This document shows, one piece after another, positions 1,457 to 47,350 of a DNA stretch of 64,000 nucleotides. The notes below the pieces were generated by a model, which was given only the letters and a program-made list of their open reading frames with translations, searched no databases and was not told the DNA's origin. The translations under genes and the position numbers were made by a program. Origin of the DNA: Mesorhizobium sp. WSM2240 (GTDB lineage Bacteria > Pseudomonadota > Alphaproteobacteria > Rhizobiales > Rhizobiaceae); the NCBI RefSeq assembly GCF_040438645.1, contig NZ_CP159254.1, positions 42,086 to 106,085 of the forward strand, given 5' to 3'. Positions within the stretch are counted from its first letter, which is position 1; each line of letters begins with the position of its first letter.

Positions 1457-3382
1457 ATGTCCAGCAAGATCATAGTCAGCGTCGCTATGCTTCTAGTGTC
1501 GGCGGCGCCCCTGGCGGCTCAGGACGCCGGAGCGCTTTCCGCCGACAAGGCAGGCAAGGCGCATCCCTCGCGCCCCGACTATTCGCCCTATGCGGACCGC
1601 AAGTTCCCGGTGCAGCCTTTCTTCGGCGACACCCACCTGCACACCTCGTTCTCGATGGATGCGGGTGCGTTCGGAGCCCGGCTGCCACCCCGCGATGCCT
1701 ACCGCTTCGCCCGTGGAGAGCAAGTGACGTCCTCGACCGGCCTGCCGGTCAAGCTCTCGCAGCCGCTCGATTTCCTCGTGGTGGCGGATCACTCCGACAA
1801 CATGGGCTTCTTCCCCGACCTGTTTGCCGGCAAGCCCAACATGCTGGCCGACCCGACCGGCAAGAAGTGGTACGACATGATCAAGTCGGGCAAGGGCGCG
1901 GAGGCGGCGATCGACATCATCGTCAGCTTCTCGCACAACAAGTTTCCCGATGACCTGATGTATTTCCCAGGCACCAAGGCCTACCGCAATGCCTGGAACG
2001 AGACGATCGCGGCGGCGGAAGAATACAACGAGCCCGGACGCTTCACCGCCTTCATCGGCTATGAATGGACATCCAACACCGGCGGCAACAACCTGCACCG
2101 CAACGTGATCTTCCGCGACAATGGCGACAAGGCGAGCCAGGTCGACCCCTTCACCGTCTATCCGCCCTATGGCAGCGACAATCCCGCCGACCTGTGGAAA
2201 TGGATGCAGGCTTATGAAGACAAGACCGGCGGCGACGTGCTGGCAATCGCTCACAACGGCAATCTCAGCAACGGACTGATGTTCCCGACCGTCGAAGCGT
2301 TCGGCAAGAAACTCGACAAGGACTATGTCGAGACGCGCGCCAAATGGGAGCGCCTGTTTGAGGCCTCGCAGACCAAAGGCACCGGCGAGGCGCATCCGGC
2401 CCTGTCGCCCAACGACGAGTTCGCCGATTTCGAAATATGGGACAAGGGTAATCTCGACGGCAGCGTGGCCAAAAAGCCCGAGATGCTGGAGTTCGAATAT
2501 GTACGCTCGGCCTTCAAGAACGGGCTCAAGCTGGAGAAGGAACTCGGCACCAACCCCTACAAGTTCGGCCTCATCGGCAGCAGCGACGCGCACAACTCGC
2601 TGTCGGCGCTGGCAGAGGATAATTTTTTCGGCAAGACAGTGCCCCAGGAGCCGAGCCCCGAGCGCATGATTGCGGCCTTCATCGACAACAAGCAGACCGG
2701 CGTGAAGATCATGGACTGGGAGGTCGGCGCATCGGGCTACGCTGCCGTGTGGGCCGAGGAGAACACGCGCGAATCGATATGGGACGCGATGCAACGCAAG
2801 GAAACCTACGCCACGACCGGACCACGCATGGCGGTGCGCTTCTTCGGCGGCTGGGAATTCACCGCCGCCGACGCCGAGGAGCGCCAGCCTGCCTATGTCG
2901 GCTACACCAAGGGCGTGCCGATGGGCGGCGACCTCGGCGAGGGCCCCGAAGGCAAGGCGCCGACCTTCCTGGTGGCGGCGCTGAAGGACCCGATCGGCGC
3001 CAATCTCGACCGCTATCAGATTGTCAAGGGCTGGATGGAGGCCGACGGCACGCTGCAGGAGAAGGTCTACGACGTCGTCTGGGGCGGCGACCGCCAGCCA
3101 GGTGCCGACGGCAAGCTGCCGCCGGTCGGCGATACAGTCGACGTGGCCAATGCGAAATGGACCAACACGATCGGTGCGCCGGAACTTATCGCGGTGTGGA
3201 CCGATCCGGATTTCGACCCGTCCGAGCCCGCGTTTTATTACGGCCGCGTCATCGAGATTCCGACCCCCCGGTGGACGGCTTACGATGCCAAGTTCTTCGG
3301 CACGACGCCGCTCGACGGTACCAGGATGAAAGTTCAGGATCGCGCCTATACCTCCCCGATTTGGTATGATCCTGCCGGCTAA
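1457..3382 (+). CDS. DUF3604 family exported PHP-like metal-dependent protein
   Basis: A 641-residue protein with a cleavable signal peptide (hydrophobic 5-20, cleavage near LAAQ) that matches the DUF3604 family in length and pattern. PHP-phosphoesterase-like metal motifs are visible: FGDTHLHTSF (His60, His62), VVADHSDN, IAHNGN and IGSSDAHN. Activity is therefore probably metal-dependent hydrolysis in the periplasm; the substrate is unknown. The ATG at 1457 is chosen over the one at 1445 because GGAGGG sits five bases upstream. It is the first gene of a co-directional run with HupE/UreJ-type proteins, a parvulin and DUF2092. The family often sits beside HupE-like and isomerase genes, so a shared function is likely but unproven. 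Confidence 0.85.
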   Translation: MSSKIIVSVAMLLVSAAPLAAQDAGALSADKAGKAHPSRPDYSPYADRKFPVQPFFGDTHLHTSFSMDAGAFGARLPPRDAYRFARGEQVTSSTGLPVKLSQPLDFLVVADHSDNMGFFPDLFAGKPNMLADPTGKKWYDMIKSGKGAEAAIDIIVSFSHNKFPDDLMYFPGTKAYRNAWNETIAAAEEYNEPGRFTAFIGYEWTSNTGGNNLHRNVIFRDNGDKASQVDPFTVYPPYGSDNPADLWKWMQAYEDKTGGDVLAIAHNGNLSNGLMFPTVEAFGKKLDKDYVETRAKWERLFEASQTKGTGEAHPALSPNDEFADFEIWDKGNLDGSVAKKPEMLEFEYVRSAFKNGLKLEKELGTNPYKFGLIGSSDAHNSLSALAEDNFFGKTVPQEPSPERMIAAFIDNKQTGVKIMDWEVGASGYAAVWAEENTRESIWDAMQRKETYATTGPRMAVRFFGGWEFTAADAEERQPAYVGYTKGVPMGGDLGEGPEGKAPTFLVAALKDPIGANLDRYQIVKGWMEADGTLQEKVYDVVWGGDRQPGADGKLPPVGDTVDVANAKWTNTIGAPELIAVWTDPDFDPSEPAFYYGRVIEIPTPRWTAYDAKFFGTTPLDGTRMKVQDRAYTSPIWYDPAG

Positions 3383-3387
3383 AAGAC

Positions 3388-4035
3388 ATGAAACCGCGGC
3401 ATTGCGAATCGAATGGACCTGCTACGGGCGTTAGGAAAGTGCTTTTGCGCTCAACCCTTGTCCTCACGGCGTTGTGGTCGGTCGCAACCGACAGTATCGC
3501 CTGCGGGTACGAGAACCCCACTGCCATCTCGCTTGGCATTCTGAACTGGTCATATCCCGAAGCACTTCATATACGAACCGCGGTCTGGCAGGCTGAGAAC
3601 ACGGGCCTGCTGCAGCCGCGTGGCAAACCGCCGACAACTGGCTTGCTCGCCTTCTACAGGGCTGCGGCAAGCATGAACCGGCTTGGCGGTCTCCTCGAAG
3701 GAGCAAAGGAGCAGACACCGGCAACTTTCTCCATCGTACTCATCCCGCAGGTTATGTGGACCCGCTTTGTGCCGGACGGCGATCTTGTGAGGGTGATGAC
3801 GCATGCGCCGGGGCCGCTGGCGGGCGAAGCAGTGGTCGTCACAAATGAAAAGGTCGTGCGGGCCCTGCTGGACAGGCGTCTGGGGTTGCGTGATGCTGAA
3901 ATGCAGGGACTGCTGCGCATCTACGGCGAGGAAGCCAAGCAGGTGGCCGTACGCGACGCTTTGGCGGTCGCTGTGCGGAGCGAGGCCAAAGCTGTCCGAA
4001 AGCATGCGAGTGCCGCTTTGCAGGAGGGACAATGA
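3388..4035 (+). CDS. exported protein of unknown function in the HupE operon
   Basis: About 215 residues. An N-terminal hydrophobic stretch (LLRSTLVLTALW) followed by SIACGYEN suggests export with cleavage or lipid attachment near the Cys. No domain is recognised. The middle contains a long amphipathic region (ALHIRTAVWQAENTGLL), and the C-terminal 70 residues look helical and basic. A GTG at 3439, preceded by AGGAAA, is a possible alternative start that would give a more typical signal peptide. It begins 5 bases after the DUF3604 stop and overlaps the next gene by 4 bases, so it is almost certainly translated with the operon. Confidence 0.6.
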   Translation: MKPRHCESNGPATGVRKVLLRSTLVLTALWSVATDSIACGYENPTAISLGILNWSYPEALHIRTAVWQAENTGLLQPRGKPPTTGLLAFYRAAASMNRLGGLLEGAKEQTPATFSIVLIPQVMWTRFVPDGDLVRVMTHAPGPLAGEAVVVTNEKVVRALLDRRLGLRDAEMQGLLRIYGEEAKQVAVRDALAVAVRSEAKAVRKHASAALQEGQ

Positions 4036-17823: not shown

Positions 17824-18264
17824 TCAGTAGCCGTTGTCGCGGAGATACTGGTCGATGGCCGCCTTCATGATGACGGTCATCTTCAGGTCGTTTTCGTGCG
17901 CGGCCTTTTCGAGCCGCTTCTTTGTCTCGTAATCCAGCGGCACGTTGACGAAATGCTTCGATTCACGTTCACGAGCGCGCTTCAGATCGCGAAGTCGGGT
18001 CCGCGAAACCTCACGCTCCAAAGCGCGTGTCGTCGATCGCTCTCGGCGTTCAGCCTCCGTGGTGGCCAACAGGGCCGTTGGTGCCTGGTCTTCTTCCCCT
18101 TTTGCCGTCTGCGGGACTGCGTCCGGTTCAACGGCAGACTTGACTGGCGCCCCTGCGGTCTCTTTCCCAGGTGGCGCGACTTCGCGGGCTGGCTTGGCCG
18201 CGCTCGGCCTTGGCCGGCGCGGCGCAACGGGGAAATCCGAAACAGTCGTTTGTCTCTTAACCAT
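17824..18264 (-). CDS. ribbon-helix-helix DNA-binding protein (VirC2/ParB-small type)
   Basis: A 146-residue protein. A proline/alanine-rich flexible N-terminal half precedes a basic helix (RTRLRDLKRARERESKHF) and a C-terminal ribbon-helix-helix (VNVPLDYETKKRLEKAA, LKMTVIMKAAIDQYL). It overlaps the ParA gene by 8 bases. ParA-plus-RHH pairs act either in plasmid partition or, as VirC1/VirC2, in helping the relaxase act at the nick site. The predicted oriT lies about 600 bp away across the ParA gene, so the VirC2-like role is favoured but not proven. Confidence 0.7.
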   Translation of the reverse strand: MVKRQTTVSDFPVAPRRPRPSAAKPAREVAPPGKETAGAPVKSAVEPDAVPQTAKGEEDQAPTALLATTEAERRERSTTRALEREVSRTRLRDLKRARERESKHFVNVPLDYETKKRLEKAAHENDLKMTVIMKAAIDQYLRDNGY

Positions 18265-18964
18265 TGACTACCTCCTTGAGGTAACTCGTCAGCAGCTTCT
18301 CAATGTCGCCGACCAGGCTCACGACTTCCGTCCTTGCCTTCCTAACGGGCTCCGTCAATTCGAGCATTTGCAGTGTTCCGTAGCCGTTTCGCAGCTCGCG
18401 ATAGCAATTGCGTTCCAGAAGCTCGGTATCGAGCAAACAGGAATCGTAGCCATTTTCGCGGAGGTTGTTCACGAACGGCCGGATCAGCCGATACGCCTCA
18501 AGATTGCGAGCCGGAATTGTTAACCGGGTGACGAAGTTAGCCTGCGGAATTATGTACCCGATCTGATCGGCAATCTCCGCTGCGGCTTGCGCAGCTTCGC
18601 CTGCTGCCTTGATCTCATCCTGGTTCGGTTGGATCGGCGTGAGGATCAGGTGAGAATTTCGGATAATGGTGTCGCGCACAACGCTGTCCTGACCGGGTGA
18701 ATCCATGATCACCACGTCATACTTGCCTGCGTCGGCATCGAGGACCTGCTGGATCGTGCCCTGTCGCGCGGCCGTCACCAGATCGATGCCATCGGGTATA
18801 TTGTCCTTCGCCTCGCAGCGCTTCCACCACTCATGGAGATTCTGTCGGCCGTCGGCATCGATCAGCAGAACGCGCTTTCCCTGAAGGGCGTATTCGCCGG
18901 CAATCAAGATAACTGCTGTCGTCTTGCCGGCTCCCCCGCTAACCGCTGACACAAAGACTGGCAT
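18257..18964 (-). CDS. ParA/MinD-family ATPase, VirC1-like
   Basis: A 235-residue P-loop ATPase: SAVSGGAGKTTAV (Walker A, residues 6-18), VLLIDADGRQNLHEWW (switch I region), and VVIMDSPGQDS (Walker B). The ADxxxNLxxW pattern after the Asp resembles VirC1 of Agrobacterium more than chromosomal ParA. The signature lysine that normally precedes GG is a serine here. ATG 18964 is chosen because AAGGGAG lies about 10 bases upstream and the protein starts like the family; the longer frame to 19126 adds nothing recognisable. It likely works with the RHH protein at the oriT or centromere. Confidence 0.78.
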   Translation of the reverse strand: MPVFVSAVSGGAGKTTAVILIAGEYALQGKRVLLIDADGRQNLHEWWKRCEAKDNIPDGIDLVTAARQGTIQQVLDADAGKYDVVIMDSPGQDSVVRDTIIRNSHLILTPIQPNQDEIKAAGEAAQAAAEIADQIGYIIPQANFVTRLTIPARNLEAYRLIRPFVNNLRENGYDSCLLDTELLERNCYRELRNGYGTLQMLELTEPVRKARTEVVSLVGDIEKLLTSYLKEVVNG

Positions 18965-19667
18965 TCTCGGTAACTCCCTTCGCCAGGGCGCAATGTCGTT
19001 TCCGCTCGATCTCTGCGCATTTGCGCGGGAAAGCCTGTGAACGCCCATGCTACTCAAATAGACTACTTCAACACCATGCGAAAAATCTGCCACAGCCTTG
19101 GAAAACATCGCATCGACATAGCCCATGTCAAATCAGGCCCACGGTAACGAACCATATTACTTAACCACGCCATGTCCACATCGTGTGGCAATGATGTGTG
19201 TCATATCACACTTCCCGCTCGTGTGGTTTTTGCGTGTCGAACTGGCCAACGGCACTGCGATTGAGAGGGCCTCCCTGGCGGCACCTGTTGAGATTCTGCT
19301 GGCGTGGTGAACCCCGGAGCCGCGTGAGAGGCCGTCTGTGACGCTCGCACGCAAGCCGCCAGGGCGAAGAGCGGAGCGTCCCTTGCGGCTGAGTACGAGG
19401 GGCACACAAAGGCCGTCACTAGCGGATTTCGGAGGTGAACCCTGGTGAGCGTTTCATCGTTTGAAAGGGCAGGACGAAGTCCCTGCCCGTCATTGCGATA
19501 GGTTGAGCGAAGCGAGAGCCTTTCGAGGAGATGATCATGATAGGTGGAATTTGGTTGCTATTAGAGGTGGCAGGATACGGAAAAATGTGCGACATTTTTT
19601 CCTGACGATCGAGGAACACGCCCTCGATGCCTGCCGCAAGCGCCAGAGAGAGGGGCCCCAAGGCCAA
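18965..19667. other. divergent intergenic region holding the transfer origin
   Basis: Between the leftward ParA operon and rightward mobC. Besides the predicted nick region at 19568-19602, it has inverted arms GACGCTC (19340-19346) / GAGCGTC (19374-19380) and CGCAAG (19350-19355) / CTTGCG (19382-19387), plausible protein-binding sites within an oriT. An imperfect ACACGA/TCGTGT pair lies near 19177-19245. No gene is supported here. Confidence 0.5.
19568..19602. other. predicted oriT core: border-like nick site plus adjacent hairpin
   Basis: TGGCAGGATA at 19568-19577 equals the core of T-DNA borders. On the bottom strand it reads TATCCTG|CCA, the IncP/VirD2 nick consensus with cleavage after the G. 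One base further lies an inverted repeat, GGAAAAATGT (19579-19588) and ACATTTTTTCC (19592-19602), on the 5' side of the nick on that strand, as in RP4 oriT. It sits about 70-100 bp before mobC and the relaxase gene. The nicked strand would enter the recipient with the ParA side first and the relaxase gene last. Confidence 0.72.
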
Positions 19668-20069
19668 ATGGACGACGTGAGATTCGAGGTCCGGCTCGAG
19701 CCGGACCGGAAGGAACGCATGGTGCACGCCCGCGTCAGCGCGGACGAGTATGCAGCCATCGAGAAAGCCGCCCAGGCGGCTGACATGACGGTTTCCGGAT
19801 TTTTCCGCTCGCTGATTTTGGAAGGCGCCGGGGTCCGGCCGATCCTTACGAAAGAGGATCGCGCCATCATGGCGCTGTTGCTGGAGGATATGCGCGCAAT
19901 CGGCGTCAACCTGAACCAGGTCGCGCGATCGATAAACAGCGGCAAGAGCGTTCATCCGAGCGAGCTCGACATCAATCTCGCGAACGTGCAGAGCGTCCAA
20001 GCGGCCGTCATGACCGAGCTGCGTTCGTTATCGAAGCGCGCCGGTCACAAGCGGCGAGGGGAGGGGTAG
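19668..20069 (+). CDS. mobC: mobilisation accessory protein MobC
   Basis: A 133-residue relaxosome protein. A ribbon-helix-helix-like DNA-binding part (HARVSADEYAAIEKAAQAADM, SGFFRSLILEGA) is followed by the MobC family's IGVNLNQVARSINSGK motif and a basic C-terminus. MobC binds near oriT and helps melt the nick region for the relaxase. ATG 19668 is the most likely start; the frame is open back to 19461 and covers the predicted nick site, so a longer form cannot be excluded. The relaxase gene follows after 3 bases. Confidence 0.82.
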   Translation: MDDVRFEVRLEPDRKERMVHARVSADEYAAIEKAAQAADMTVSGFFRSLILEGAGVRPILTKEDRAIMALLLEDMRAIGVNLNQVARSINSGKSVHPSELDINLANVQSVQAAVMTELRSLSKRAGHKRRGEG

Positions 20070-20072
20070 GCG

Positions 20073-22514
20073 TTGGAACTCTTCTTCGGCGCGTTCACCA
20101 GCGAATGGGAGCAGCGGCGCGCGGCGCTGCTGCATGAGCTATCGCTTGGAGGGGGACGATCTACGGCCGAGGAAGAATTGCGGCGGCGCATGAAGGCGCT
20201 GGCCGAGCTTGGCGCAGCGGGTGGCGGCGGAGGTGGCGGCGGCGCCGCGCCGAAGTCGCGTCACGCAGCGTCGAAGAGTATGCAGGGCACGGCGGCTAAA
20301 GCTTCGACGGTGGCGCGGCCGATGCAGGTCCGGCTTGCGGCAGTGGCGCAGGGAAGCCAGCCGGCCGTTGTCAAAATGGCGTCCTATGGTGGCGGAGCGC
20401 GGGTCGGGGCGATGCTTAATTACGTTTCGCGCGGCGGCGAGCTTTCCGTAGAGAACGAAAACGGCGAGCGCATCCGAAGCCGTGAGGACCTTGCCGGCAT
20501 TCGGGCCGATTGGGATCATCTGTTTCAGAACCGAACCGAGAGCCGGGATATCGGCAGTTTCACCGTGGAGATCGCAGCGACTGCTTTCGCGTCCGACGAT
20601 GCGATGCATGAGCTGGTGAGAAGCAGCCTTACGAGCGGTTTTGGCGACCGGCATTTTGCCTATGCCGTCGAGAAGAACGACGACGGCGCATTGACCGTGC
20701 AAGGCGTCGTGGTTCTCAGGAGCGGGCAGGGGGAACGGTTGACGGGTGACGAAAAGGCGGCCGGCATCATTCAGGCCCGATACGATGCAAGCGCAGCTGC
20801 GAGCGAAGCGGCTGCCCAATTCTCGTTTCAGGAATATGGCAACGGTGTCGATTACGGTTCGGGCAAGTTGCGGGACCTGGTCGACAGTCACGGTGGCGAT
20901 GTCCGTGACGATCGCGGCCAGCCTGTCGCGGACGACAAGGCCGCGGGCGACCTGGTGCAAAAGAAATGGCGCGGGGATCTGCACAGCAGAAAAAGCCGCG
21001 ACGTGATGCACCTCATCATGTCGGCCAGGGCCGGAACGGATGCCGCGGCATTCGAGGGCGCCGTTCGTGACTTCCTTGCGGATCAGTTCGCGGGACATCG
21101 CTATGTGTTCGCGATGCACGATCCCGCCAATGACCCGAAGGAGGCCGGGGAGGGCGGCAAGCGCCCGCACGTTCACGCCCACGCGATCGTCACCATGAAA
21201 TCAGAATCCGGTGACCGGATCGAGACGACGCCGGCCGTGTTCCGGCAATGGCGGGTGGCGATGGCAGAAAAGGCCCGGGATCATGGCATTGCCATGGAAA
21301 TGACCGATCGGCGGGAGTTCGCCAATCCGCCGGCCTTCACGCGCAACCAGGTGCGGCCGGTCAGCAGGGAAGGGCGGACGGAGCATGTCGGAACAAGCGA
21401 AGCCGCGCAGGCGAGGTATGACGCTAAGCGGAACGGCCGGAGAACCTTAGCCAAAAGCGAAAGGAGCCGGGAGTATACCGTAAAGGCTAAGCAAAGCTGG
21501 CAAGAAATCGCACTTGCAAGCGGTGACCGGCGCATCGTCGCCTATGCCGCCCAACAGCGGGATCAATTGATATCCGGGCTTTCGGGCGGACAGGCAGAAG
21601 CGACCTCCAATGTTGTCCATGCAGATTTCGGGTCAAAGTTCCGCGCCAATCTGGTACCATTACAAGAGCTGGTTTTGGAGGGTGACGAATTGCGCGCGAC
21701 ATCACGGACAGATTTCGAGGCTTATGAAAAGAAGGTCGAGACGGCCTTGTTCAAGCTCGAGCGTATCGTCGGGCCAGAAGAACGGAGCGACTTTGACGAG
21801 GTTGCGGCCTTGGCGCGCGAACACGTCAATCAACGGCGTGAGCTCATGCAGCTCCATGAGCAGCGCAATGAGGCGATCGCAGAGCAGGGTGGCGAAGATC
21901 AGCAGTCCAATCGGCGTGACGAGGTTAACGACAGATCGGATGCTGCAGTCGCCAAACATGGCAAGGCGGATGTCGACGCTGCAAATGAACTTCTCATCGA
22001 GATCGAACACAATCGGGAAGGATTGGACCGGATCGAGGCCGGCGACTTGCCTCATGATCCTAAGTCATTCCGCGCCGGGCTTGAGCAGGGGTTGGAACGC
22101 GCAGCGGAACTAGCGGTGCGGGGCAACACCTATATGCGGGAAGTGGCCGAGCAAGATCATGACCTTCAGAGTGCCATCGAGAAGGCCGAACAGGACGCAC
22201 AGCGACCGGAGGAAGAAAAGGGCAAAACGCCGGCGAGTGTCGATACTGTTGCCGAACAGCAGCGCGATCTTCGCAACGATGAGACGGAGCGCCAGCCGAA
22301 TGAAAACGACGCTCGTGGGGCTCGTGAACTGGCGTCGACGGTCGACGCTACAAATCGTCTACAGGATCGAGTAGATAAAGATAAGGAAGCCGCGCGGCGT
22401 GGTGGCGAAACAACACGGACCGATCCCGCGCAACAGCACATTCCTCGGCTTGAGGAGCTGGAGCGGGAGGAAATGGACAAGAGGGAACGCGACCGCGACG
22501 ACCGGGAACGTTAA
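20073..22514 (+). CDS. VirD2-like MOBP relaxase
   Basis: An 813-residue protein. Residues 1-90 are an alanine/glycine-rich extension. The relaxase domain follows with the candidate catalytic tyrosine in AMLNYVSRGGEL (Tyr117) and the metal-binding triad in KRPHVHAHAIVTM (His366, 368, 370). The long C-terminal half is helical and strongly charged, ending in a KRERDRDDRER-like tail, which could be the secretion signal. Relaxases nick oriT, stay on the 5' end and pilot the strand. A TTG start is used because GAGGGGAGGGG lies six bases upstream and there is no nearby ATG. It is co-transcribed with mobC. Confidence 0.85.
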   Translation: MELFFGAFTSEWEQRRAALLHELSLGGGRSTAEEELRRRMKALAELGAAGGGGGGGGAAPKSRHAASKSMQGTAAKASTVARPMQVRLAAVAQGSQPAVVKMASYGGGARVGAMLNYVSRGGELSVENENGERIRSREDLAGIRADWDHLFQNRTESRDIGSFTVEIAATAFASDDAMHELVRSSLTSGFGDRHFAYAVEKNDDGALTVQGVVVLRSGQGERLTGDEKAAGIIQARYDASAAASEAAAQFSFQEYGNGVDYGSGKLRDLVDSHGGDVRDDRGQPVADDKAAGDLVQKKWRGDLHSRKSRDVMHLIMSARAGTDAAAFEGAVRDFLADQFAGHRYVFAMHDPANDPKEAGEGGKRPHVHAHAIVTMKSESGDRIETTPAVFRQWRVAMAEKARDHGIAMEMTDRREFANPPAFTRNQVRPVSREGRTEHVGTSEAAQARYDAKRNGRRTLAKSERSREYTVKAKQSWQEIALASGDRRIVAYAAQQRDQLISGLSGGQAEATSNVVHADFGSKFRANLVPLQELVLEGDELRATSRTDFEAYEKKVETALFKLERIVGPEERSDFDEVAALAREHVNQRRELMQLHEQRNEAIAEQGGEDQQSNRRDEVNDRSDAAVAKHGKADVDAANELLIEIEHNREGLDRIEAGDLPHDPKSFRAGLEQGLERAAELAVRGNTYMREVAEQDHDLQSAIEKAEQDAQRPEEEKGKTPASVDTVAEQQRDLRNDETERQPNENDARGARELASTVDATNRLQDRVDKDKEAARRGGETTRTDPAQQHIPRLEELEREEMDKRERDRDDRER

Positions 22515-26663: not shown

Positions 26664-27686
26664 ATGGACAACGTTACGACGATTGGTCTGGATATCGCGA
26701 AGTCCTTGTTTCAAGTCCACGGCGTAGATGCCGTGGGCCAGGTTGTCATTCGAAGGAAGCTGACCCGCGGGCGCGTGCTGGGGTTCTTCGAGAAACTGCC
26801 GCGATGTCTGGTCGGGATCGAAGCCTGCAGTTCCTCGCACTATTGGGCGAGAGAGCTGACCGCACGAGGTCATGATGTGCGACTGCTGCCGGCACAGTAC
26901 GTGAAGCCCTATTTGAAGCGACAGAAGAACGATGCGGCCGATGCCGAGGCCATCTGCGAGGCGGTGACCAGGCCGACCATGCGCTTCGTGCCGGTGAAGA
27001 CGCCCGACCAGCAGAGTGTGATGATGTTGCACCGGGTTCGGTTGATGCTCAACCGCCAGCGCACGCAGATATCGAACGCCTTACGGGCCCATCTGTCCGA
27101 GTTCGGGATCGTAGCGCCGATCGGGCGTAACGGAATTGAGCAACTGCTCGTGGTCATCAACGATGATAACGACACGAGGATACCGGCTGACGCAAGGCTC
27201 TGCCTGCGAATGCTCGAGGCGCAGCTCACGGTCGTGAAGGCGCAGATCCTTGAAAACGATCGCAGGGTGCGGGCGAGTGCGCGAGAGACCGAGCTGGGTC
27301 GCAGGTTGATGGAGATACCGGGGGTGGGCCCGCTGTTGGCGAGTGCGTTTGTCGCGACCGTCGCCGATCCGCTCGCATTCAAGTCGGGGCGATGCCTCTC
27401 GGCCTGGATCGGGCTCGTTCCCAAGCAGAACTCAAGCGGGGGCAAGGAGAAGCTCGGCAGCATCTCCAAAGCCGGCAATCGCTACCTGCGCCAGCTGCTC
27501 GTGGTCGGAGCGATGGCGGTCATCCGCTATGCCGAGCGGCACGGCACGAGGCGACCCTGGCTCGTGCAGCTGATGGCACGGCGAACAACCAAGGTGGCGG
27601 CGGTCGCGCTCGCCAACAAGACCGCGCGGATGGTCTGGGCACTGATGACGAACGGCGAGCGCTACAAGGAGCCGATCATCGCGTAG
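26664..27686 (+). CDS. IS110-family DEDD transposase
   Basis: A 340-residue protein. The N-terminal RuvC-like DEDD domain shows TTIGLDIAKSLFQVHGVD (first Asp), CLVGIEACSSSHYWARE (Glu) and KRQKNDAADAEAICEA (last Asp pair). The C-terminal transposase_20 domain shows MEIPGVGPLLASAFVATV and the serine motif region QNSSGGKEKLGSISKAGNRYLR. All catalytic residues are present, so it looks active. GAAGGAGAG precedes the ATG. Such enzymes recombine DNA guided by an RNA encoded in the element. Confidence 0.93.
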   Translation: MDNVTTIGLDIAKSLFQVHGVDAVGQVVIRRKLTRGRVLGFFEKLPRCLVGIEACSSSHYWARELTARGHDVRLLPAQYVKPYLKRQKNDAADAEAICEAVTRPTMRFVPVKTPDQQSVMMLHRVRLMLNRQRTQISNALRAHLSEFGIVAPIGRNGIEQLLVVINDDNDTRIPADARLCLRMLEAQLTVVKAQILENDRRVRASARETELGRRLMEIPGVGPLLASAFVATVADPLAFKSGRCLSAWIGLVPKQNSSGGKEKLGSISKAGNRYLRQLLVVGAMAVIRYAERHGTRRPWLVQLMARRTTKVAAVALANKTARMVWALMTNGERYKEPIIA

Positions 27687-38300: not shown

Positions 38301-38897
38301 CGTTGGGCGGTCATCCGACGGAAACCCGGATGACCGCTTTGACCAGCGTTAAATCGACGAGTCCACGACGGGGTGGGAAACGGACTGGCGGGTTTGGGGC
38401 GGCTACGTCGAGAAAGCTGACCTTCACCGAGTGAACAAGCTTCGGCGGCAACGCGCCCTCATGTCGGCCATAGACGCGAACTTTGCCTCCGCCCAGAAGC
38501 AGACATTGCGGTTGACCACGCTGGAGGTCGTGGCTGCGCCAGATGCTTCCGTTGGCGCGAGTGCCGTTGAACAACCGGAGGCGGATCTCATTCAAGCCGT
38601 TCGGCGAGGGCCGATAAAACGTCAGTTGTCCCGTTTTGACACTCGACGACCATCGATGGAGAGTGTCGACCGCGGTTCGTCATCCACCAGTTGGCAAGCG
38701 CCAACAAGCTCCGGTGACGGTCGACCCCCGGGGCATCCATATATGAAATTACTATGAGATCGGCTGGCGGCCCCTCTCGAATTTATATCCCTCATCCGCC
38801 AATTCTCCCGCCACAACCAAGGCATCCATCGCGCGCATCATCGACGGCCGACGGATGCTGCGCGCGCCCACATGGTCACATCCGATTGGAGCCCCGA
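38301..38897. other. 597-bp stretch ahead of the kdp operon
   Basis: Open frames exist on both strands but lack starts with ribosome-binding sites. The last 140 bases should contain the kdp promoter and KdpE-binding site; a unique palindrome could not be picked out. Confidence 0.45.
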
Positions 38898-38981
38898 ATG
38901 CTTGATGTTCTTTTGCTGGCGATCGGCCTCGGCTTTTTCGCTCTTTCCATCATCTACGGCTTGGCCTGCGACAGGCTTTGA
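38898..38981 (+). CDS. 27-residue membrane peptide leading the kdp operon
   Basis: The peptide has one hydrophobic helix ([19 protein letters not shown]) and ends ACDRL. Such a peptide precedes kdpF in many proteobacterial kdp operons. It is distinct from KdpF, which follows after 11 bases. It probably associates with the pump, but no function is established. Confidence 0.62.
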
Positions 38982-38992
38982 GGAGAACGACG

Positions 38993-39082
38993 ATGATTTT
39001 CGACTACGCCCTGGGTGGCCTCGTGACCGTGCTGCTCCTTGGCTACCTCATCTATGCGCTTGTCCGCCCGGAACGGTTCTGA
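38993..39082 (+). CDS. kdpF: K+-transporting ATPase small subunit KdpF
   Basis: A 29-residue single-helix peptide ([20 protein letters not shown]) ending RPERF, the KdpF hallmark. It stabilises the KdpABC complex. AGGAG lies 7 bases upstream of the ATG; kdpA follows after 8 bases. Confidence 0.88.
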
Positions 39083-39090
39083 GGGTTTCC

Positions 39091-40794
39091 ATGACAATCA
39101 ATGGCTGGATACAGATCGCTCTTTTTTGCGTGATCGTCGTTGCGCTGGTAAAGCCGCTCGGCGGCTACATGGCGCGCGTCTTCAACGGCGAGCGCACTTT
39201 GCTTTCGCCCGTACTGCACCCCATCGAGCGCGGTCTTTACGCGCTCTCCGGCATCGACGGGCGTCAGGAGCAGCACTGGCTGACCTACGCGGTGGCGATG
39301 CTGCTCTTCAATGCGGCCGGCTTCGTACTGCTGTTCGCCTTGCAGCGCCTGCAAGGCGCGCTGCCGTTCAACCCGATGGGGTTTGGCGCGGTGACGCCGG
39401 ACTCCTCCTTCAACACCGCCGTCAGCTTTGTCACCAACACCAATTGGCAGGGCTATGGCGGCGAGAGCACGATGGGCTACCTCGTTCAGATGGCCGGGCT
39501 CACCGTGCAGAACTTCGTCTCGGCAGCCACCGGCATTGCCATCGCCATGGCCCTGATCCGCGGCTTCTCGCGCGCTTCCGCGCGCACGGTTGGCAATTTC
39601 TGGGCCGATCTGACTCGCGGCACGCTCTACATCCTGCTGCCGATCTGCGTCATCTATGCGCTGGTCCTGGTGTTCCAGGGCGTGCCGCAGACGCTGTCGT
39701 CCTATGTCAACGCCACAACGCTCGAAGGCGCCGAGCAGACCATCGCGGTCGGCCCGGTGGCGTCGCAGCTTGCGATCAAGATGCTGGGCACGAATGGCGG
39801 CGGCTTCTTCAACGCCAACTCCGCACACCCGTTTGAGAACCCGGACGCGATCACCAATCTCCTCCAGATGGTGTCGATCTTCGCCATAGGCGCGGCACTC
39901 ACCAACGTGTTCGGCCGCATGGTCGGCGACGAACGGCAGGGCTGGGCAATACTTGCCGCCATGGGCGTGCTGTTCCTCGCTGGCGTCGCCGTCACCTACT
40001 GGGCGGAAGCAGCCGGCAACCCGGCTTTCACAGCGCTGGGGATCGAGGGCGGCAACATGGAAGGCAAGGAGGTGCGCTTCGGGATCGCGCTGTCTGCCCT
40101 CTTCGCGGTCATCACCACGGCGGCCTCCTGCGGCGCGGTCATCGCCATGCATGACAGCTTCATGCCGCTCGGCGGCATGATACCGCTGATCAACATGCAG
40201 CTTGGCGAGGTGATCGTCGGGGGAGTCGGCGCCGGCCTCTACGGCATGCTCCTGTTCGTCATCCTGGCGATCTTCATCGCCGGCCTCATGGTCGGACGCA
40301 CGCCGGAATATCTCGGCAAGAAGATCGAGGCCAAGGAGGTCAAGATGACCATGCTGGCCATCCTGTCGCTGCCGCTGGCGATCCTCGGCTTCACGGCGAT
40401 GGCCGTGGTCCTGCCGACCGGCGTGGCGTCTCTTGCCAATACGGGTCCGCACGGTCACTCGGAAATCCTCTACGCCTACACCTCTGGGGCCGCCAACAAC
40501 GGCAGCGCCTTCGCCGGACTGTCCGCCAATACGCTTTGGTACAATCTGACAATCGGTCTCGCCATGCTGGCCGGCCGCTTCCTCGTCATTATTCCGGTGA
40601 TGGCGATCGCCGGCTCGCTTGCGGCAAAGAAGCGCGTTCCGGCTTCGGCGGGCACGTTTCCCACCCATGGCGGACTGTTCATCGGACTGCTCGTCGGCAT
40701 CGTGCTGATCGTCGGTGGCCTCACCTTCTTTCCGGCACTCGCAGTCGGCCCCATCGTCGAACATCTCGCGATGATGGCCGGCCAGACATTTTGA
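39091..40794 (+). CDS. kdpA: K+-transporting ATPase subunit KdpA
   Basis: A 567-residue membrane protein, normal length. It has about ten helices and the four K+-selectivity loops typical of the SKT superfamily, for example [30 protein letters not shown] and [14 protein letters not shown]. It forms the high-affinity potassium entry channel of the KdpFABC pump. The ATG at 39091 matches the family's N-terminus; the frame is open further upstream only by chance. Confidence 0.95.
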
Positions 40795-40807
40795 CAGGAA
40801 CGGCATC

Positions 40808-42904
40808 ATGGCCAAATCCGACACAATCAGCCTTTTCAGCGGCAGCATCATCAGGCCGGCGATCGGCTCTGCCTTCGTAAAGCTCGATCCGAGAGTGCAG
40901 TTGCGCAATCCAGTCATGTTCGTGGTCGAGGTCGTGGCGGCGCTGACCACGCTGCTCTTCATCCGCGACCTCGCGACAGGGGGCGAGAATCTCGCCTTCT
41001 CGTTTCAGATCATCCTCTGGCTTTGGTTTACGCTTCTGTTCGCCAACTTCGCCGAAGCTGTCGCGGAAGGGCGCGGCAAGGCCCAGGCCGACACGCTGCG
41101 CAAGGCGCGCTCTGAAACGCAGGCGAAGCTGCTCGCGGACGAAGCCGCCTCCGACTACAAGCTGGTCCCGGGCACGAGCCTGAAGCCGGGCAATATCGTT
41201 CTCGTGGAGGCAGGCGACATCATACCCTCCGATGGCGAAGTCATCGAGGGCGTCGCTTCGGTCAACGAAGCGGCGATAACGGGCGAATCGGCCCCGGTCA
41301 TTCGCGAATCGGGCGGCGACCGCTCGGCGGTAACCGGCGGTACCCAAGTTCTATCCGACCAGATCAAGGTGCGGATCACGGCGGCGGCCGGTTCGACCTT
41401 CCTCGATCGAATGATCAGCCTCGTCGAAGGTGCCTCGCGCCAGAAGACGCCGAACGAGATCGCCCTCAACATCCTGCTGGCCGGTATGACTATCATCTTC
41501 GTGCTGGCGGTCGCCTCGATCCCGAGTTTTGCCATCTATGCAGGCGGGTCGATCCCCGTCATCGCCCTGGTCGCGCTTTTCGTCACGCTGATCCCGACCA
41601 CGATCGGCGCGCTGCTGTCGGCGATCGGCATCGCCGGGATGGACCGGCTCGTCCGCTTCAACGTGCTTGCAATGTCGGGCCGGGCAGTCGAAGCGGCCGG
41701 CGACGTGGACACGCTTCTTCTCGACAAGACCGGAACCATCACGCTCGGCAACCGCCAGGCGACGGAATTCCTGCCCGTGCGGGGCGTTGACGCACGCGAG
41801 CTTGCCGATGCGGCGCAGTTGGCTTCGCTCGCCGACGAGACGCCCGAAGGTCGCTCCGTCGTGGTGCTCGCCAAGGAAAAATACGGCATTCGCGGCCGCG
41901 ACATGCAGCAGCTCCACGCCAATTTCGTGCCCTTCACCGCGCAGACGCGCATGAGCGGCGTCGACGTCGAGGGCAGTTCGATCCGCAAGGGCGCGGTCGA
42001 CGCCATTCTCGCCCATGTCGGCGCCAATCCGAATGCGGCGCTCGCCGTCAGTGGCTCGACAGCTGTCGGCACGCGGGCGTCGAGCGACAGTATCCGTGAA
42101 ATCCGCGCCATCGCCGACGAGATCGGCAAGGCCGGCGGCACGCCGCTCGCCGTTGTTCGCAACGGGCGTCTCCTCGGCATCATCCATCTGAAAGACATCG
42201 TCAAAGGCGGCATAAAGGAGCGTTTCGCCGCCTTAAGGCAAATGGGCATCCGCACCGTGATGATCACCGGCGACAATCCCATGACTGCGGCGGCAATCGC
42301 CGCCGAGGCGGGCGTCGACGACTTCCTAGCCCAGGCGACGCCCGAAGCCAAGCTTCAGCTTATCCGCGACGAACAGGCGAAAGGAAAACTCGTCGCCATG
42401 TGCGGCGACGGCACGAATGACGCGCCGGCGCTCGCCCAGGCCGATGTCGGCGTGGCGATGAACACCGGCACGATGGCGGCGCGGGAAGCCGGCAACATGG
42501 TTGATCTCGACAGCGACCCGACCAAACTGATCGAGGTCGTCGAGATCGGCAAGCAGCTTCTCATGACGCGGGGATCGCTGACGACTTTTTCCATTGCCAA
42601 TGACGTCGCCAAGTACTTCGCCATCATCCCGGCGATGTTCGTCGCCTTTTATCCGCAACTCCAGACGCTCAACGTGATGCGGCTCGGCACACCAGAAAGC
42701 GCGATCCTTTCGGCGATCATCTTCAACGCCTTGATCATCGTGGCGTTGATCCCGCTCGCCCTCAGAGGCGTAAAATACCGCGCGGTCGGCGCGGCAGCGC
42801 TGCTTCGCCGCAACCTTCTCATCTACGGCCTTGGCGGCGTCATCATTCCATTCGTCGGCATCAAGGTGATCGACGTAGCAATCACCGCGCTCGGCCTTGC
42901 ATAA
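40808..42904 (+). CDS. kdpB: K+-transporting P-type ATPase subunit KdpB
   Basis: A 698-residue P-type ATPase. The phosphorylation motif [14 protein letters not shown], actuator motif [10 protein letters not shown] and hinge motif [18 protein letters not shown] are intact, with the KdpB-specific short membrane part (about seven helices). It hydrolyses ATP to drive K+ uptake through KdpA. GGAACGGC lies before the ATG; 13 bases separate it from kdpA and 12 from kdpC. Confidence 0.96.
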
Positions 42905-42916
42905 GGACCAACAGAA

Positions 42917-43486
42917 ATGCTCGCACAGCTTCGCCCCGCGCTGGTCATGATCGTGGCCCTCACCCTCCTCACCGGCGTCGCCTATCCCCTCGCTGTCACC
43001 GGAATTGCGCAGACGGTCTTTCCCCGGCAGGCAAACGGCAGCCTGATCGAACGGGACGGCAAGGTGATCGGATCCGAACTCGTCGGCCAGTCGTTCACCG
43101 GAGAGCGTTATTTCCATACGCGCCCTTCGGCCGCCGGCGACGGCTATGACGCTGCGGCATCCGGCGGCTCCAATCTCGGCCCGACCAGCAAGAAGCTGAT
43201 CGAGCGTGTCACGGCCGACGCGGCGGCCCTCAGCGGCGAGAACCCCGGAGTTCCCGTGCCCGTCGACCTGGTGACGACGTCGGCAAGCGGGCTCGACCCG
43301 CATCTCTCGCCCGAAGCCGCACTTTTCCAGGCGCCGCGTGTCGCCAAAGCCCGCAATCTTCCGGAGGACCACGTGCGCCAACTCGTCGCCGCCCATATCG
43401 AGGACCGGATCGTGGGAATATTCGGCGAGCCCAGGGTCAACGTGCTGCGACTGAACTTGGCCCTTGACGCTGAAGCGGTACAGTAG
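42917..43486 (+). CDS. kdpC: K+-transporting ATPase subunit KdpC
   Basis: A 189-residue protein with one N-terminal helix ([20 protein letters not shown]) and a periplasmic domain with the family's [19 protein letters not shown] and [20 protein letters not shown] motifs. It acts as the chaperone-like subunit raising K+ affinity of the pump. Gene length and context are normal. Confidence 0.95.
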
Positions 43487-43495
43487 GAGGACGCG

Positions 43496-43947
43496 ATGCT
43501 GCGGATAACAGACCTGCTCAGCCTGGAAGACGTTGGTCTGGACGTCAGAGCTATGTCCAAGAAGCATGTGCTGCTGGAACTCGCCAGAATGCTGGCTGCC
43601 CAGTCAGGCTTGCCCGATACCGTATTTTCCAGGCGCTCACCGAACGTGAAAACCTGGGCACTACCGGATTCGGCCAAGGGATAGCGGTGCCGCATGCACG
43701 GCTCCGCGAGCTTGGGACGACCCATGCCGCCCTTGTCCGGCTGGCCGAGCCGGTGGATTTTGAAGCCGGCGACGATCGACCTGTCGATCTGGTCTGCGCT
43801 ATCATCGGACCTGAAGGCCCGACACAGGAGCCGTTCGAAGCGCTGGTCAGCGCGTGCCGCGTCTTGCGAAATCCGGAAACCCTGGCAAAGCTCCGGCAGG
43901 CGGGTAGCGCTGCCGCTGTTCACTCCATTCTGGCCGAGGCAGTTTGA
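43496..43947 (+). pseudogene. PTS EIIA (nitrogen-type) domain gene inside kdp, frameshifted
   Basis: The first frame reads LRITDLLSLEDVGLDVRAMS ... SGLPDTVF. Near 43628 the sense moves to a frame reading QALTERENLGTTGFGQGIAV and PHARLRELGTTHAALVRL, where the His of VPHAR is the phosphorylation site of EIIA-Ntr. The joined product would be about 150 residues, normal for PtsN. In enteric bacteria EIIA-Ntr binds KdpD and tunes kdp expression; a dedicated copy between kdpC and kdpD suggests the same control here. The break is in a TTTT run, so a sequencing error or programmed slip is possible. AGGAGG precedes the start, and kdpD overlaps the end. Confidence 0.75.
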
Positions 43948-46661
43948 GCAGAACCCGATCGATGTCCGACCACAACGTCAAGGACAAGCGCCCATCCCCC
44001 GAGGCTCTCCTCGAGGAGGCGTCGCGTGAGTCGCGCGGCCATCTCAAGGTCTTCCTGGGGGCCGCTCCCGGCGTGGGAAAAACCTACGAGATGCTTCTCA
44101 GCGCGGCAGGGCGGAAGCGCGAGGGTGTCGATGTGATTATCGGCGTCGTCGAGACCCATGGGCGCGCGGAGACAGAAGCCCTGGTGAAAGGGTTCGAGAT
44201 CGTTCCGCGCCGCCGCATGGATTACAAGGGCCGCGCCATCGAGGAGATGGATCTGGATGCCGTTCTCGCTCGCGCGCCGCAACTGGTGCTGGTCGACGAA
44301 CTGGCGCATACCAACGCGCCCGGAAGCCGGCATCCCAAGCGCTACTTGGATGTAGACGACCTGCTCGCCGCCGGGATCGATGTTTATACCACGGTCAACA
44401 TCCAGCATCTTGAAAGCCTGAATGACGTCGTGGCGCAGATCACGCGCATACGCGTCCGCGAGACCGTGCCCGACGCCTTCATAGACCGCGCCGACGAAAT
44501 CGAGGTCATCGATCTGACGCCCGGAGACCTGATCCAGCGCCTGAAGGAAGGCAAGGTCTATGTCCCCAAGACAGCGGAACGGGCGCTGACCCACTACTTC
44601 TCGCCAGGCAACCTGACAGCACTTCGCGAGCTTGCGCTCAGACGCACCGCCCAGCGTGTCGACCAGCAGTTACTCACGCACATGCAGGCTCATGCCATCT
44701 CAGGGCCTTGGGCGGCCGGTGACCGCGTGCTTGTGGTCGTCAACGAGCATCCGAAGGCGGCAGCACTCGTGCGATACGCGCGCCGCCTGGCCGAACGGCT
44801 GCGAACGCCCTGGGTGGCGCTCTACGTCGAAACGCCGCGCGCGCTGCGTTTGACAGAGGCCGAACGCGATCGCGTCGCGGACGCCTTGCGCCTTGCCGAG
44901 AAGCTCGGCGGCGAAGCCGTCACGATCCCCGGCAGCGGGCTCGCGAAGGAGATCATCGGTTATGCCGAGGCCAACAATTTCAGCCATCTTATTATTGGCA
45001 AGAGCCAGCGGTCTCGCTTTCATGAATTGCTTTTCGGATCCGTCACCTATGACATCGTGCGCGGCGCCGGACACATTGCCGTCCATGTCATCGCGGGAGC
45101 CGAACGCGATGCTTTGCCGGGAAAAACAGTGGCGACACGCGATGTGTCGGCCGGAGTTGAACTCCAGCCATACCTGGTCAGCATCGGCCTCATTGCGGTG
45201 GCGCTCGCTTTCGGCTTGCTGCTTGCCCAGTATCTCGATGTCGACAATGTCGCGCTGGTCTTTCTGACCGCGGTTCTGGTGAGCGCGGTCGCCTATGGTC
45301 TTCTGCCCGCGCTCTTCACCAGCGTCGTCAGCATGCTTACCTTCAACTTCTTCTTCATACATCCGCTCCACACATTCACGATCAGCGATCCCGAAAATGT
45401 GGTCGCGCTGTTTTTCTTCTTCGTGGTGGCCCTGATCGCCAGCAACCTGACGGCAAGCGTGCGCAGCCAGGCGATGGTGGCGCGCCGGCGCGCCAAGACG
45501 ACCGAGGATCTCTACCTCTTCAGCCGCAAGCTCGCGGGCATTGCGACTCTCGACGACCTGCTTTGGGCGACCGCCTCTCAGGTCGCATCCATGCTCAAGG
45601 TCCGGGTCGTGCTCTTTCTTCCGAGCGATGGCTCCATCACGCTGAGGGCGGCGTGGCCGCCCGAGGACGTTGCCGAGGAAGCCGATCTGGCCGCGGCCAA
45701 ATGGTCATGGGAAAACAATCGGCCGGCAGGCCGCGGCGCCGACACCTTGCCTGGCGCAAAGCGCCTGTTTCTGCCGATGCGCACCGGACGCGGCGCCGTT
45801 GCCGTCATCGGCATCGACAGCGACAAGGCCGGCGCCATCCTGACACCCGACCAGCGGCGGCTGCTCGATGCGCTCACCGACCAGGCCGCGCTTGCGATCG
45901 AGCGCGTGAACCTTGCCGAAGACGTTGACCGGGCGAAGCGCGCGGCCGAAAAGGACCAGCTCCGGTCGGCGCTCCTCACCTCCATATCGCACGATTTGCG
46001 CACCCCGCTTGCCTCCATCCTCGGCGCCGCCAGCAGCCTCGGCACCCTGTCGGGACTCGAAGAGGCAGACAAGGCGGGACTTCTCTCGACGATCCAGGAC
46101 GAAGCCGAGCGTCTCAACCGCTTCATCGCCAATCTTCTCGACATGACGCGGCTCGAATCGGGAGCGGTCGCGCCGAATATGAGCCTTCACGACATCAGCG
46201 AAGTGGTAGGCGCCGCTCTCCGGCGGGCTGACAAGATCCTGTCGCATCACCGAGTCGAAACGAAGATCGCGGCCGATCTTCCGATGGTGAGCCTCGACGC
46301 GGTGCTGTTCGAGCAGGTGCTGTTCAATCTTCTCGACAACGCCGCCAAATACGCGCCGCCGAACTCGGCCGTCCGCATCCAGGCCTGGCTCGACGATAAC
46401 ATGGTGCGGCTGCAAATCCTCGACGAAGGGGGAGGCATTCCGGCCGACGACCTGAACCGCGTCTTCGACAAATTCTACCGCGTGCGTAAAAGCGACAGCC
46501 AGCGTGCCGGCACGGGTCTCGGTCTTGCCATCTGCCGCGGCTTCATCGAAGCCATGGGCGGCTCCATCGAGGTTGCCAACCGAAACGATCGCCCCGGCGC
46601 GGTCTTCACGATCGCCATTCCAGTCCCGGAGGAAACTGGCAAATTGGACACGGCGGCATGA
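43944..46661 (+). CDS. kdpD: potassium-sensing histidine kinase KdpD
   Basis: A 905-residue protein, normal length. Order: KdpD sensor domain with Walker A FLGAAPGVGKTYEML and VLVDELAHTNAPGSRH; USP domain; four helices (residues about 410-510); GAF domain; HisKA with SISHDLRTPLASILGA (phosphorylated His); HATPase with NLLDNAAKYAPP and GTGLGLAI. It senses K+ limitation and phosphorylates KdpE. TTG 43944 overlaps the EIIA stop; ATG 43962 is an alternative start without a good ribosome-binding site. kdpE overlaps by 4 bases. Confidence 0.95.
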   Translation: MSRTRSMSDHNVKDKRPSPEALLEEASRESRGHLKVFLGAAPGVGKTYEMLLSAAGRKREGVDVIIGVVETHGRAETEALVKGFEIVPRRRMDYKGRAIEEMDLDAVLARAPQLVLVDELAHTNAPGSRHPKRYLDVDDLLAAGIDVYTTVNIQHLESLNDVVAQITRIRVRETVPDAFIDRADEIEVIDLTPGDLIQRLKEGKVYVPKTAERALTHYFSPGNLTALRELALRRTAQRVDQQLLTHMQAHAISGPWAAGDRVLVVVNEHPKAAALVRYARRLAERLRTPWVALYVETPRALRLTEAERDRVADALRLAEKLGGEAVTIPGSGLAKEIIGYAEANNFSHLIIGKSQRSRFHELLFGSVTYDIVRGAGHIAVHVIAGAERDALPGKTVATRDVSAGVELQPYLVSIGLIAVALAFGLLLAQYLDVDNVALVFLTAVLVSAVAYGLLPALFTSVVSMLTFNFFFIHPLHTFTISDPENVVALFFFFVVALIASNLTASVRSQAMVARRRAKTTEDLYLFSRKLAGIATLDDLLWATASQVASMLKVRVVLFLPSDGSITLRAAWPPEDVAEEADLAAAKWSWENNRPAGRGADTLPGAKRLFLPMRTGRGAVAVIGIDSDKAGAILTPDQRRLLDALTDQAALAIERVNLAEDVDRAKRAAEKDQLRSALLTSISHDLRTPLASILGAASSLGTLSGLEEADKAGLLSTIQDEAERLNRFIANLLDMTRLESGAVAPNMSLHDISEVVGAALRRADKILSHHRVETKIAADLPMVSLDAVLFEQVLFNLLDNAAKYAPPNSAVRIQAWLDDNMVRLQILDEGGGIPADDLNRVFDKFYRVRKSDSQRAGTGLGLAICRGFIEAMGGSIEVANRNDRPGAVFTIAIPVPEETGKLDTAA

Positions 46662-47350
46662 GCTCGCGCCCAATCAGGGTTCTGGTGATCGACGATGAAC
46701 CTTCCATCCGGAAACTGTTGCGGACAAGCCTGGCTACCCAGGGATTTCAGGTGTTCGAAGCCGCGAACGGTCGCGAAGCGCTTGCACAGGTCGAGCAGGC
46801 CGGACCCGATCTCATCATTCTGGACCTCGGTCTGCCCGACATTCAGGGGCACGAGTTGATCCGCAAGCTTCGGCAGCAGGAATCATCAGTTCCCATCCTG
46901 GTGCTTTCCAGCCGGACAGACGAGACTGGTAAGGTCGAAGCCTTGGATCTCGGCGCCGACGACTACGTCACCAAACCATTCGGCACGGACGAACTTTTCG
47001 CCCGCATCCGCGCCGCTCTCAGGCACCGCCTTCAACAGCAGGGCGAAAGGCCTGTGTTTTCCAGCGGCGACCTGTCTGTCGATCTCGTACGCCGCATCGT
47101 CACGGTGCGCGACGTCGAGGTGAAACTGTCGCCGAAGGAATATGACATCCTGCGTCTGCTCGTTGCCCATGCCGGCAAGGTTCTTACGCACCGATACCTT
47201 CTGAACGAGGTGTGGGGCGGCGACACGGACGTGCAATATTTGCGCATCTATATCCGACAACTGAGGCAGAAGATCGAATCCAATCCGGAGCGACCAGAGC
47301 ACATCATCACCGAAACGGGCGTCGGCTATCGCCTGCGCACAATGGACTGA
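46658..47350 (+). CDS. kdpE: response regulator KdpE
   Basis: A 230-residue OmpR-type regulator. The receiver domain has the acidic pocket VIDDEPSIRK, phosphorylated Asp in LIILDLGLPDIQG and Lys in DYVTKPFG. The winged-helix domain shows KLSPKEYDILRLLVAHAGKV and YIRQLRQKIESNPERP. It activates kdp transcription after phosphorylation by KdpD. Tail-to-tail with the Trk gene pair across 218 bp. Confidence 0.95.
   Translation: MSSRPIRVLVIDDEPSIRKLLRTSLATQGFQVFEAANGREALAQVEQAGPDLIILDLGLPDIQGHELIRKLRQQESSVPILVLSSRTDETGKVEALDLGADDYVTKPFGTDELFARIRAALRHRLQQQGERPVFSSGDLSVDLVRRIVTVRDVEVKLSPKEYDILRLLVAHAGKVLTHRYLLNEVWGGDTDVQYLRIYIRQLRQKIESNPERPEHIITETGVGYRLRTMD

Follow-up and report, generated by a model that had tools for sequence, protein, structure and literature searches.

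Very probably, the segment 19568-19628 serves as the oriT core in a mobilization module of MOBP type, carried on a RepC-bearing replicon of 106 kb that is itself probably a plasmid. The window (the whole stretch of 64,000 nucleotides analysed here; G000:C2:42086-106085) corresponds to the end of a 106,085-bp contig, hereafter C2, and the first-pass annotation of this DNA had proposed a transfer origin there. This proposal, with a MOBP nick at TATCCTG/CCA (the slash marks the predicted nick), is supported because the core is conserved at a fixed spacing together with compensated changes in two inverted repeats, and because an IncP-like distance between repeat and nick is combined with an adjoining MobC and a protein with a relaxase fold. 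The module (Table 1) adds a new member to an established group, the type IV parA-mobC-mobZ regions of rhizobia, of which pSmeLPU88b has one, as parA and mobC-mobZ are divergent and MobZ is homologous to that of pSmeLPU88b.

Table 1. Features of the mobilization module (positions in the window)
Feature	Position	Strand	Remarks
Small protein with a C-terminal ribbon-helix-helix (RHH)-like domain, partner gene of parA	17824..18264	-	weak fold matches
ParA / VirC1-like ATPase, divergent from mobC	18257..18967	-	PF07015 49.3 bits, over the cut-off
Rod-like element, model R1	19304..19455	+	conserved, covarying, single copy in own genome, absent from the first-pass annotation
MOBP nick core	19568..19577	-	bottom strand TATCCTG/CCA, nick predicted opposite the 19571/19570 junction
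First inverted repeat	19579..19602		arms 19579-19588 and 19592-19602 with a single unpaired T; 8 nt separate it from the predicted nick
Second inverted repeat, ATCGAGG and CCTCGAT	19608..19628		arms 19608-19614 and 19622-19628, perfect 7 bp
mobC (NikA-like / MobC), relaxosome accessory protein	19668..20069	+	PF21983 49.5 bits, PF05713 37.2 bits, over the cut-off
MobZ-type relaxase	20073..22514	+	813 aa, TTG start

The ten bases of the core read TGGCAGGATA, as the earlier description of a border core had it, and TATCCTGCCA on the bottom strand (19577-19568). They contain the sequence (C/T)ATCCTG(C/T), which is the MOBP nick consensus (PMC3772185); the same source reports that ATCCTG is required, and that VirC1 interacts with the relaxase, for a MOBP-like relaxase. 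The complement had been identified as an IncP/VirD2 nick consensus, and the IncP record has TATCCTG/C. In a motif scan, TATCCTGYCA had one exact match in the window, at this site, whereas base composition predicts 0.15 per 64 kb, or 0.0013 for a 541-bp stretch. With up to two mismatches there were 66 matches in the window versus 54 expected, and the exact core alone is therefore informative.

One scan of genome contigs yielded 49 loci, and the relaxase match was traced in 47 of them (L004-L050). The sequence GGCAGGATACG was present once per locus, on the same strand and at the same spacing before the relaxase gene, in 43 of these 47 loci, and on the opposite strand in none of the 49. It lay 495-501 nt upstream of the relaxase match, and 727 and 734 nt upstream in two Devosia loci, in which the match begins near residue 80. 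The core had one mismatch in L041, L048 ended at a contig edge, and no core was found upstream in L037 and L050, though mobC and mobZ sequence is there (partial in L050). Across 45 aligned gap regions, positions 19569-19579 agreed with the window at 98-100%, and positions 19563-19566 at 2-40%. A second draw of 151 family genomes included 22 with a close relaxase (E ≤1e-100), and the core was found once in each of 25 mobZ loci (25/25; L097-L121, the two loci of our own genome being left out); the two draws overlap, at least six of these 25 loci (L097, L098, L100-L103) being sites of the first scan. In the own genome, the 16-mer GRCAGGATACGNAAAA had two exact matches, each upstream of a MobZ-type relaxase (on C2 and C4), and with two mismatches it had 17 matches versus 13 for a reversed control. 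A third, more distant relaxase, on C3, is preceded by TGGCAGGATA and another inverted repeat about 960 nt before its matched part. On each of the three RepC-bearing replicons (C2, C3 and C4) the relaxase thus has the same nick core upstream, whereas the inverted repeat differs from one replicon to the next.

The sequence comparisons indicate that both inverted repeats are under pairing constraint. The first had been described as a 10-bp inverted repeat. It is real and lies one base (C19578) from the core, but its left arm has five A and its right arm six T, which leaves one T unpaired, and the longest ungapped stretch is 8 bp (19581-19588 with 19592-19599). On the bottom strand it lies on the 5' side of the nick, a placement likened earlier to RP4, and its distance agrees with the 8-nt spacing of the IncP oriT, as taken from one IncP record with repeat ends set by eye. 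The bottom strand of the 61 nt folded better than 200 of 200 shuffled sequences (z -3.4), and the predicted fold comprises eight repeat pairs and five pairs between TCCTG of the core and CAGGA beyond the repeat. Among relatives, A-T, T-A and G-C interchange at four of the seven inner pairs (29 strings), and the second pair from the outside is G-C, C-G or T-A, depending on the group. These 29 strings were counted from 42 distinct post-core strings as having a 3-nt loop and at least five inner pairs, so the pairing itself is partly selected; the 13 left out comprise one stray and those whose loop differed or whose perfect stem was shorter. Some members of the Sinorhizobium group (L016, L017, L018, L022, L024 and L040) have a weak first repeat, with six pairs and a 13-nt loop. 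We infer that the first repeat is likely to be the recognition arm of the relaxase. The second repeat, missing from the first-pass annotation, is a candidate MobC site, and its arm pairs in relatives take three compensated forms (ATCGAGGG/CCCTCGAT, ATCGTGGG/CCCACGAT and ATCGACGG/CCGTCGAT). Among 78 pattern matches, which include near-duplicates, 48 had a repeat of at least 6 bp with CGA in the arm, 18 further matches had ATCGTGG(G) and (C)CCACGAT, and it was missing in 12, including two strays and L122 and L123 (beside a distant relaxase).

The genes on both sides agree with this assignment of the module. As had been claimed, mobC and the relaxase gene follow directly (likely starts ATG at 19668 and TTG at 20073), and both frames in the window are open over their full length. 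The relaxase has a predicted relaxase fold and an HxHxH-type motif, and belongs by these features to the HUH relaxases of the MOBP superfamily. Under curated cut-offs PF03432 was not reached and the NCBIfam NF041450 match fell below its cut-off, whereas relatives 52-53% identical over the relaxase part do pass PF03432; the search of the own genome with PF03432 gave no match on C2 or C4. A PDB sequence search with the relaxase profile found none up to E 1. Plain Foldseek with a 500-residue relaxase model of middling confidence gave none below E 0.001, and the 50 matches listed were mostly unrelated folds with TM near 0.1, with one relaxase (2ns6, E 0.014). VIA-align on the same Foldseek candidates ranked relaxases first, and its top 20 rows were all conjugative relaxases, 19 of them by title (4ht4, one of the 20, is presumably a conjugative relaxase). 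The relaxase domain seems to be split by a degenerate second HUH-like copy lacking the histidine motif (20532-20984, residues ~154-304). The likely start of parA is the ATG at 18967-18965, preceded by an RBS-like sequence (by eye), and its open frame extends to 19126. ParA scored above the Pfam VirC1 cut-off of 24 bits, and with the NCBIfam VirC1 equivalog it scored 52.7 bits, below the cut-off of 313. For the RHH-like protein, 2kel was matched by sequence (E 7.8e-4), the fold search gave weak CopG/ORF56/Arc-type matches (E ~1, probability 0.8-0.9), and no VirC2 match was seen in sequence and fold searches. A scan of 18900-19700 found one promoter-like site, on the minus strand at 19178-19151 and suited to parA, and no terminator.

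C2 has two RepC matches. The second lies at 58667-59857 of the window; a second replication gene is likewise present in pSmeLPU88b. Searches with PF02534 (T4CP) and PF03135 (VirB4) gave matches on C1, C3 and C4 and none on C2, so that C2 does not combine both on the same replicon, as a self-transmissible element would, and is probably a mobilizable plasmid. C4 (746 kb) carries a relative of MobZ (51% identity) that has a core of its own, besides a T4CP and a VirB4, and a helper for C2 could possibly be C4, C3 or an element of C1. On C1, a PF03432 relaxase, T4CP and VirB4 matches occur inside 18 kb (G000:C1:1153995-1171828), which suggests an integrated conjugative element. The window further contains an IS110-type transposase gene 4 kb past the relaxase gene (26664-27686), genes for KdpA, a P-type ATPase, KdpD and a response regulator (potassium uptake, 38872-47350), and a Fic/DOC family protein close to the contig end (61575-62624).

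The closest known system is that of Sinorhizobium meliloti pSmeLPU88b, in which a ParA-like sequence, the rod, the core, mobC and mobZ occur in identical order (rod from 8187, core at 8423, mobC at 8521 and mobZ at 8926 of the record). The best tblastn segments were 68% identical for MobZ, 72% for MobC and 73% for ParA. That plasmid is 36 kb in size, as opposed to 106 kb here, and in its record (named pEmeLPU88b, 35,933 bp) the ParA match spans 3358-3696 of the locus only and the gene table, itself incomplete, shows no parA entry. Its oriT was reportedly located by function by Giusti et al. in 2012, within 278 bp between parA and mobC, and its MobZ relaxase class is presumably MOBP0. The plasmid has a Dtr region and two replication genes, and no Mpf (PMC13274422, PMC10194956). 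According to the same sources, pSmeLPU88a acts as helper in S. meliloti LPU88 for the mobilization of this plasmid (Dtr only, with two replication modules), an arrangement that C2 mirrors. A similar arrangement, with TATCCTGC by a short-armed inverted repeat and a VirC1-like partner gene, is described for the oriT-like site of Helicobacter pylori tfs4, which differs in being an integrated genomic island (PMC3772185). The IncP (RP4) oriT shares with our module the TATCCTG/CC nick region and an inverted repeat that stands 8 nt from the nick on its 5' side, but has other repeat sequences, and the module has the rod as an extra element. On the leading side, the IncP record has TraK, in contrast to the VirC1-like ParA and the RHH-like protein found here.

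A mechanism may be outlined from the sequence, its conservation, the compensated changes, the protein families and the predicted relaxase fold, from which we infer every biochemical step. MobC, perhaps bound at the second inverted repeat, would aid binding of the first repeat by MobZ and the opening of the duplex. A tyrosine of MobZ would then cut the bottom strand at TATCCTG/CCA and stay on the 5' end. Because of the strand that carries the nick core, the parA side would leave first and mobC-mobZ last, as the first-pass annotation had predicted for the relaxase gene; this agrees with the IncP record, in which the accessory gene traJ is on the side that would enter last. In IncP, traI follows traJ. 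T4CP and Mpf would be supplied in trans, possibly from the 746-kb replicon of the same cell, and the VirC1-like ParA with its RHH-like partner may help to bring the relaxosome to the secretion channel.

The repeats at 19340-19387, which had been named earlier as an alternative place for the nick, are part of the separate rod-like element, in which ATCCTG is absent from either strand. No match to 4227 Rfam families was obtained at E ≤1 for 18900-20100. The rod is one long fold (161 nt; plus strand z -2.3, equalled by 2 of 200 shuffles; z -1.9 for the minus strand). An alignment of 39 of the 45 aligned sequences (A1; without L016, L017, L041, L047, L049 and one duplicate) was reduced to 31 distinct sequences (A2), in which 93.4% of cells pair, nine pairs change in a compensated way and covariation scores 0.126, versus 0.077 when shuffled (0/500) and at most 0.048 when slid. 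For 37 distinct wider sequences, in an alignment fitted to the model, there were 18 compensated pairs and a score of 0.185 versus 0.089. One-sided G-U versus A-C changes were found in A2 at 13 versus 4 Watson-Crick-majority pairs (24 versus 17 cells). The corresponding values were 15 versus 8 pairs (28 versus 26 cells, p 0.1) in A5, a set of 40 hand-chosen loci already known to have the rod, which does not include the partial L041 or many of the near-duplicates and whose alignment was fitted to R1. A fold built without G-U pairs gave 10 versus 2 cells, and four further pairs, read on the plus strand, are most often G-U. These counts favour the plus strand as the structured one; the rod may also be a structure of the transferred (bottom) strand DNA.

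R1 matched in 10 of the 151 family genomes, once each. In nine of the ten, a MobZ gene with at least 62% identity to that of the window begins ~700-770 nt after the start of the rod, and the other 13 of the 22 MobZ genomes (at most 52% identical) had no R1 match; within MobZ, one clade has the rod in the interval from parA to oriT. In the tenth genome (G017) and in an A. larrymoorei plasmid it precedes the mobC of a distant short relaxase (27-28% identical over part), and in plasmids of A. pusense and R. oryzihabitans, which are near-duplicates, the mobC of an LPD7-tailed relaxase (52-53%, relaxase part), which is a MobZ relative and no clearly separate lineage. The rod loci include L086 and L122-L125. 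The stretch from rod to oriT matched 91 plasmid records, and among the 60 matches listed, four of which cover the oriT end only, 58 had no listed feature under the match in gene tables that are incomplete, one was in an unannotated record and one overlapped mobC. R1 further matched at 1-7 places per genome in 8 of 397 genomes of the order, all of one other genus (29.5-68 bits versus 166.7 here). Ten loci of this genus (L127-L136, 1.8-3.1 kb) gave no tblastn match to mobC, mobZ, parA or the mobC and relaxase of L122, which weakens the view of the rod as strictly relaxase-linked, and the nine inspected are palindromes. What they have in common with the rod is mainly the apical hairpin (window 19360-19384), which is AAGGGCGAAGAGCGNAGCGTCCCTT-like with one mismatch in the window; nine viral contigs (L137-L145) have this hairpin part only. 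The hairpin GGGCGAAGAGCGNAGCGTCCC may be a protein-binding module of other mobile or repeated elements in Alphaproteobacteria.

The dispersed palindromes, the hairpin in viral contigs and the indecisive strand test speak against an RNA dedicated to transfer, and the rod may act as folded RNA, as a DNA structure or as a palindrome that came to lie beside oriT by recruitment. A candidate parallel is the sgm-sRNA of SGI1, a small RNA that is encoded next to an oriT and needed for mobilization (PMC9299015). By this analogy the rod could be a structured mobilization RNA of ~150 nt on the leading side of oriT, controlling mobC-mobZ expression or taking part in relaxosome assembly, a suggestion that we advance only tentatively and hold to be rather doubtful. 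We regard it as possible, though on balance improbable, that such an RNA is common to Rhizobiaceae modules with MobZ, with its LPD7-tailed relative and with the distant short VirD2-like relaxase.

The conservation of the rod bears on where the oriT proper lies, since the rod, in the gap between parA and mobC, is likewise strongly conserved and covarying, and the 278-bp fragment reported as functional may contain the rod or the core. If the rod were the oriT, the border-like core would be accessory or regulatory. We consider this highly unlikely, as 13 of the 22 mobZ genomes, and likewise L016, L017, L047 and L049, have the core and its repeat but give no R1 match, and CAGGATA lies between rod and mobC at all four rod loci beside other relaxases (two of them near-duplicates). 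The inverted repeats could instead be operators for autoregulation of MobC, next to a core that is nick-like by descent in a decayed, inactive oriT: they sit just upstream of mobC, accessory proteins like MobC often repress their own genes, and no parA or RHH-like gene was seen in the DNA covered for L016, L017 and L037. This explanation appears less likely still, because the copy in the window retains all invariant positions and open full-length mobC and mobZ, and it leaves the adjoining invariant GGCAGGATAC unexplained.

That the core is a T-DNA border, or a remnant of one, is hardly credible. The module resembles the Agrobacterium T-DNA border and VirD2 nick site in having a VirC1-like ATPase nearby, and the border repeat begins with the ten bases TGGCAGGATA. 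The description of the site as T-DNA-border-like thus holds for the nick core and fails for the full border: the 23-nt border pattern had no match in the window with up to three mismatches, there is a single exact core with no flanking pair, and mobC-mobZ adjoins it. As far as the sequence can show, the reading of this site as a transfer origin with a MOBP nick site is right.

Among the papers listed by literature searches, none gave a nick site or small RNA for MobZ regions, although they may still be in print. For rhizobial plasmids of the MobZ class, our analysis predicts precisely where the nick would fall and offers two repeats as candidates for recognition. Being derived by comparison, the predicted nick position and repeats refine the known type IV MobZ Dtr region. 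The MobZ class also occurs on a pSymA-like replicon (PMC13274422). Searches with the nick consensus and model R1 could reveal transfer origins that may escape current typing: 35 of the 91 plasmid records matching the stretch from rod to oriT (some in one part only) are typed as non-mobilizable, and three plasmids with rod, CAGGATA core, mobC and relaxase (L123, L124 and L125) are typed as such in PLSDB. If the rod does have a role in transfer, a folded nucleic acid would be added to the parts list of such regions.
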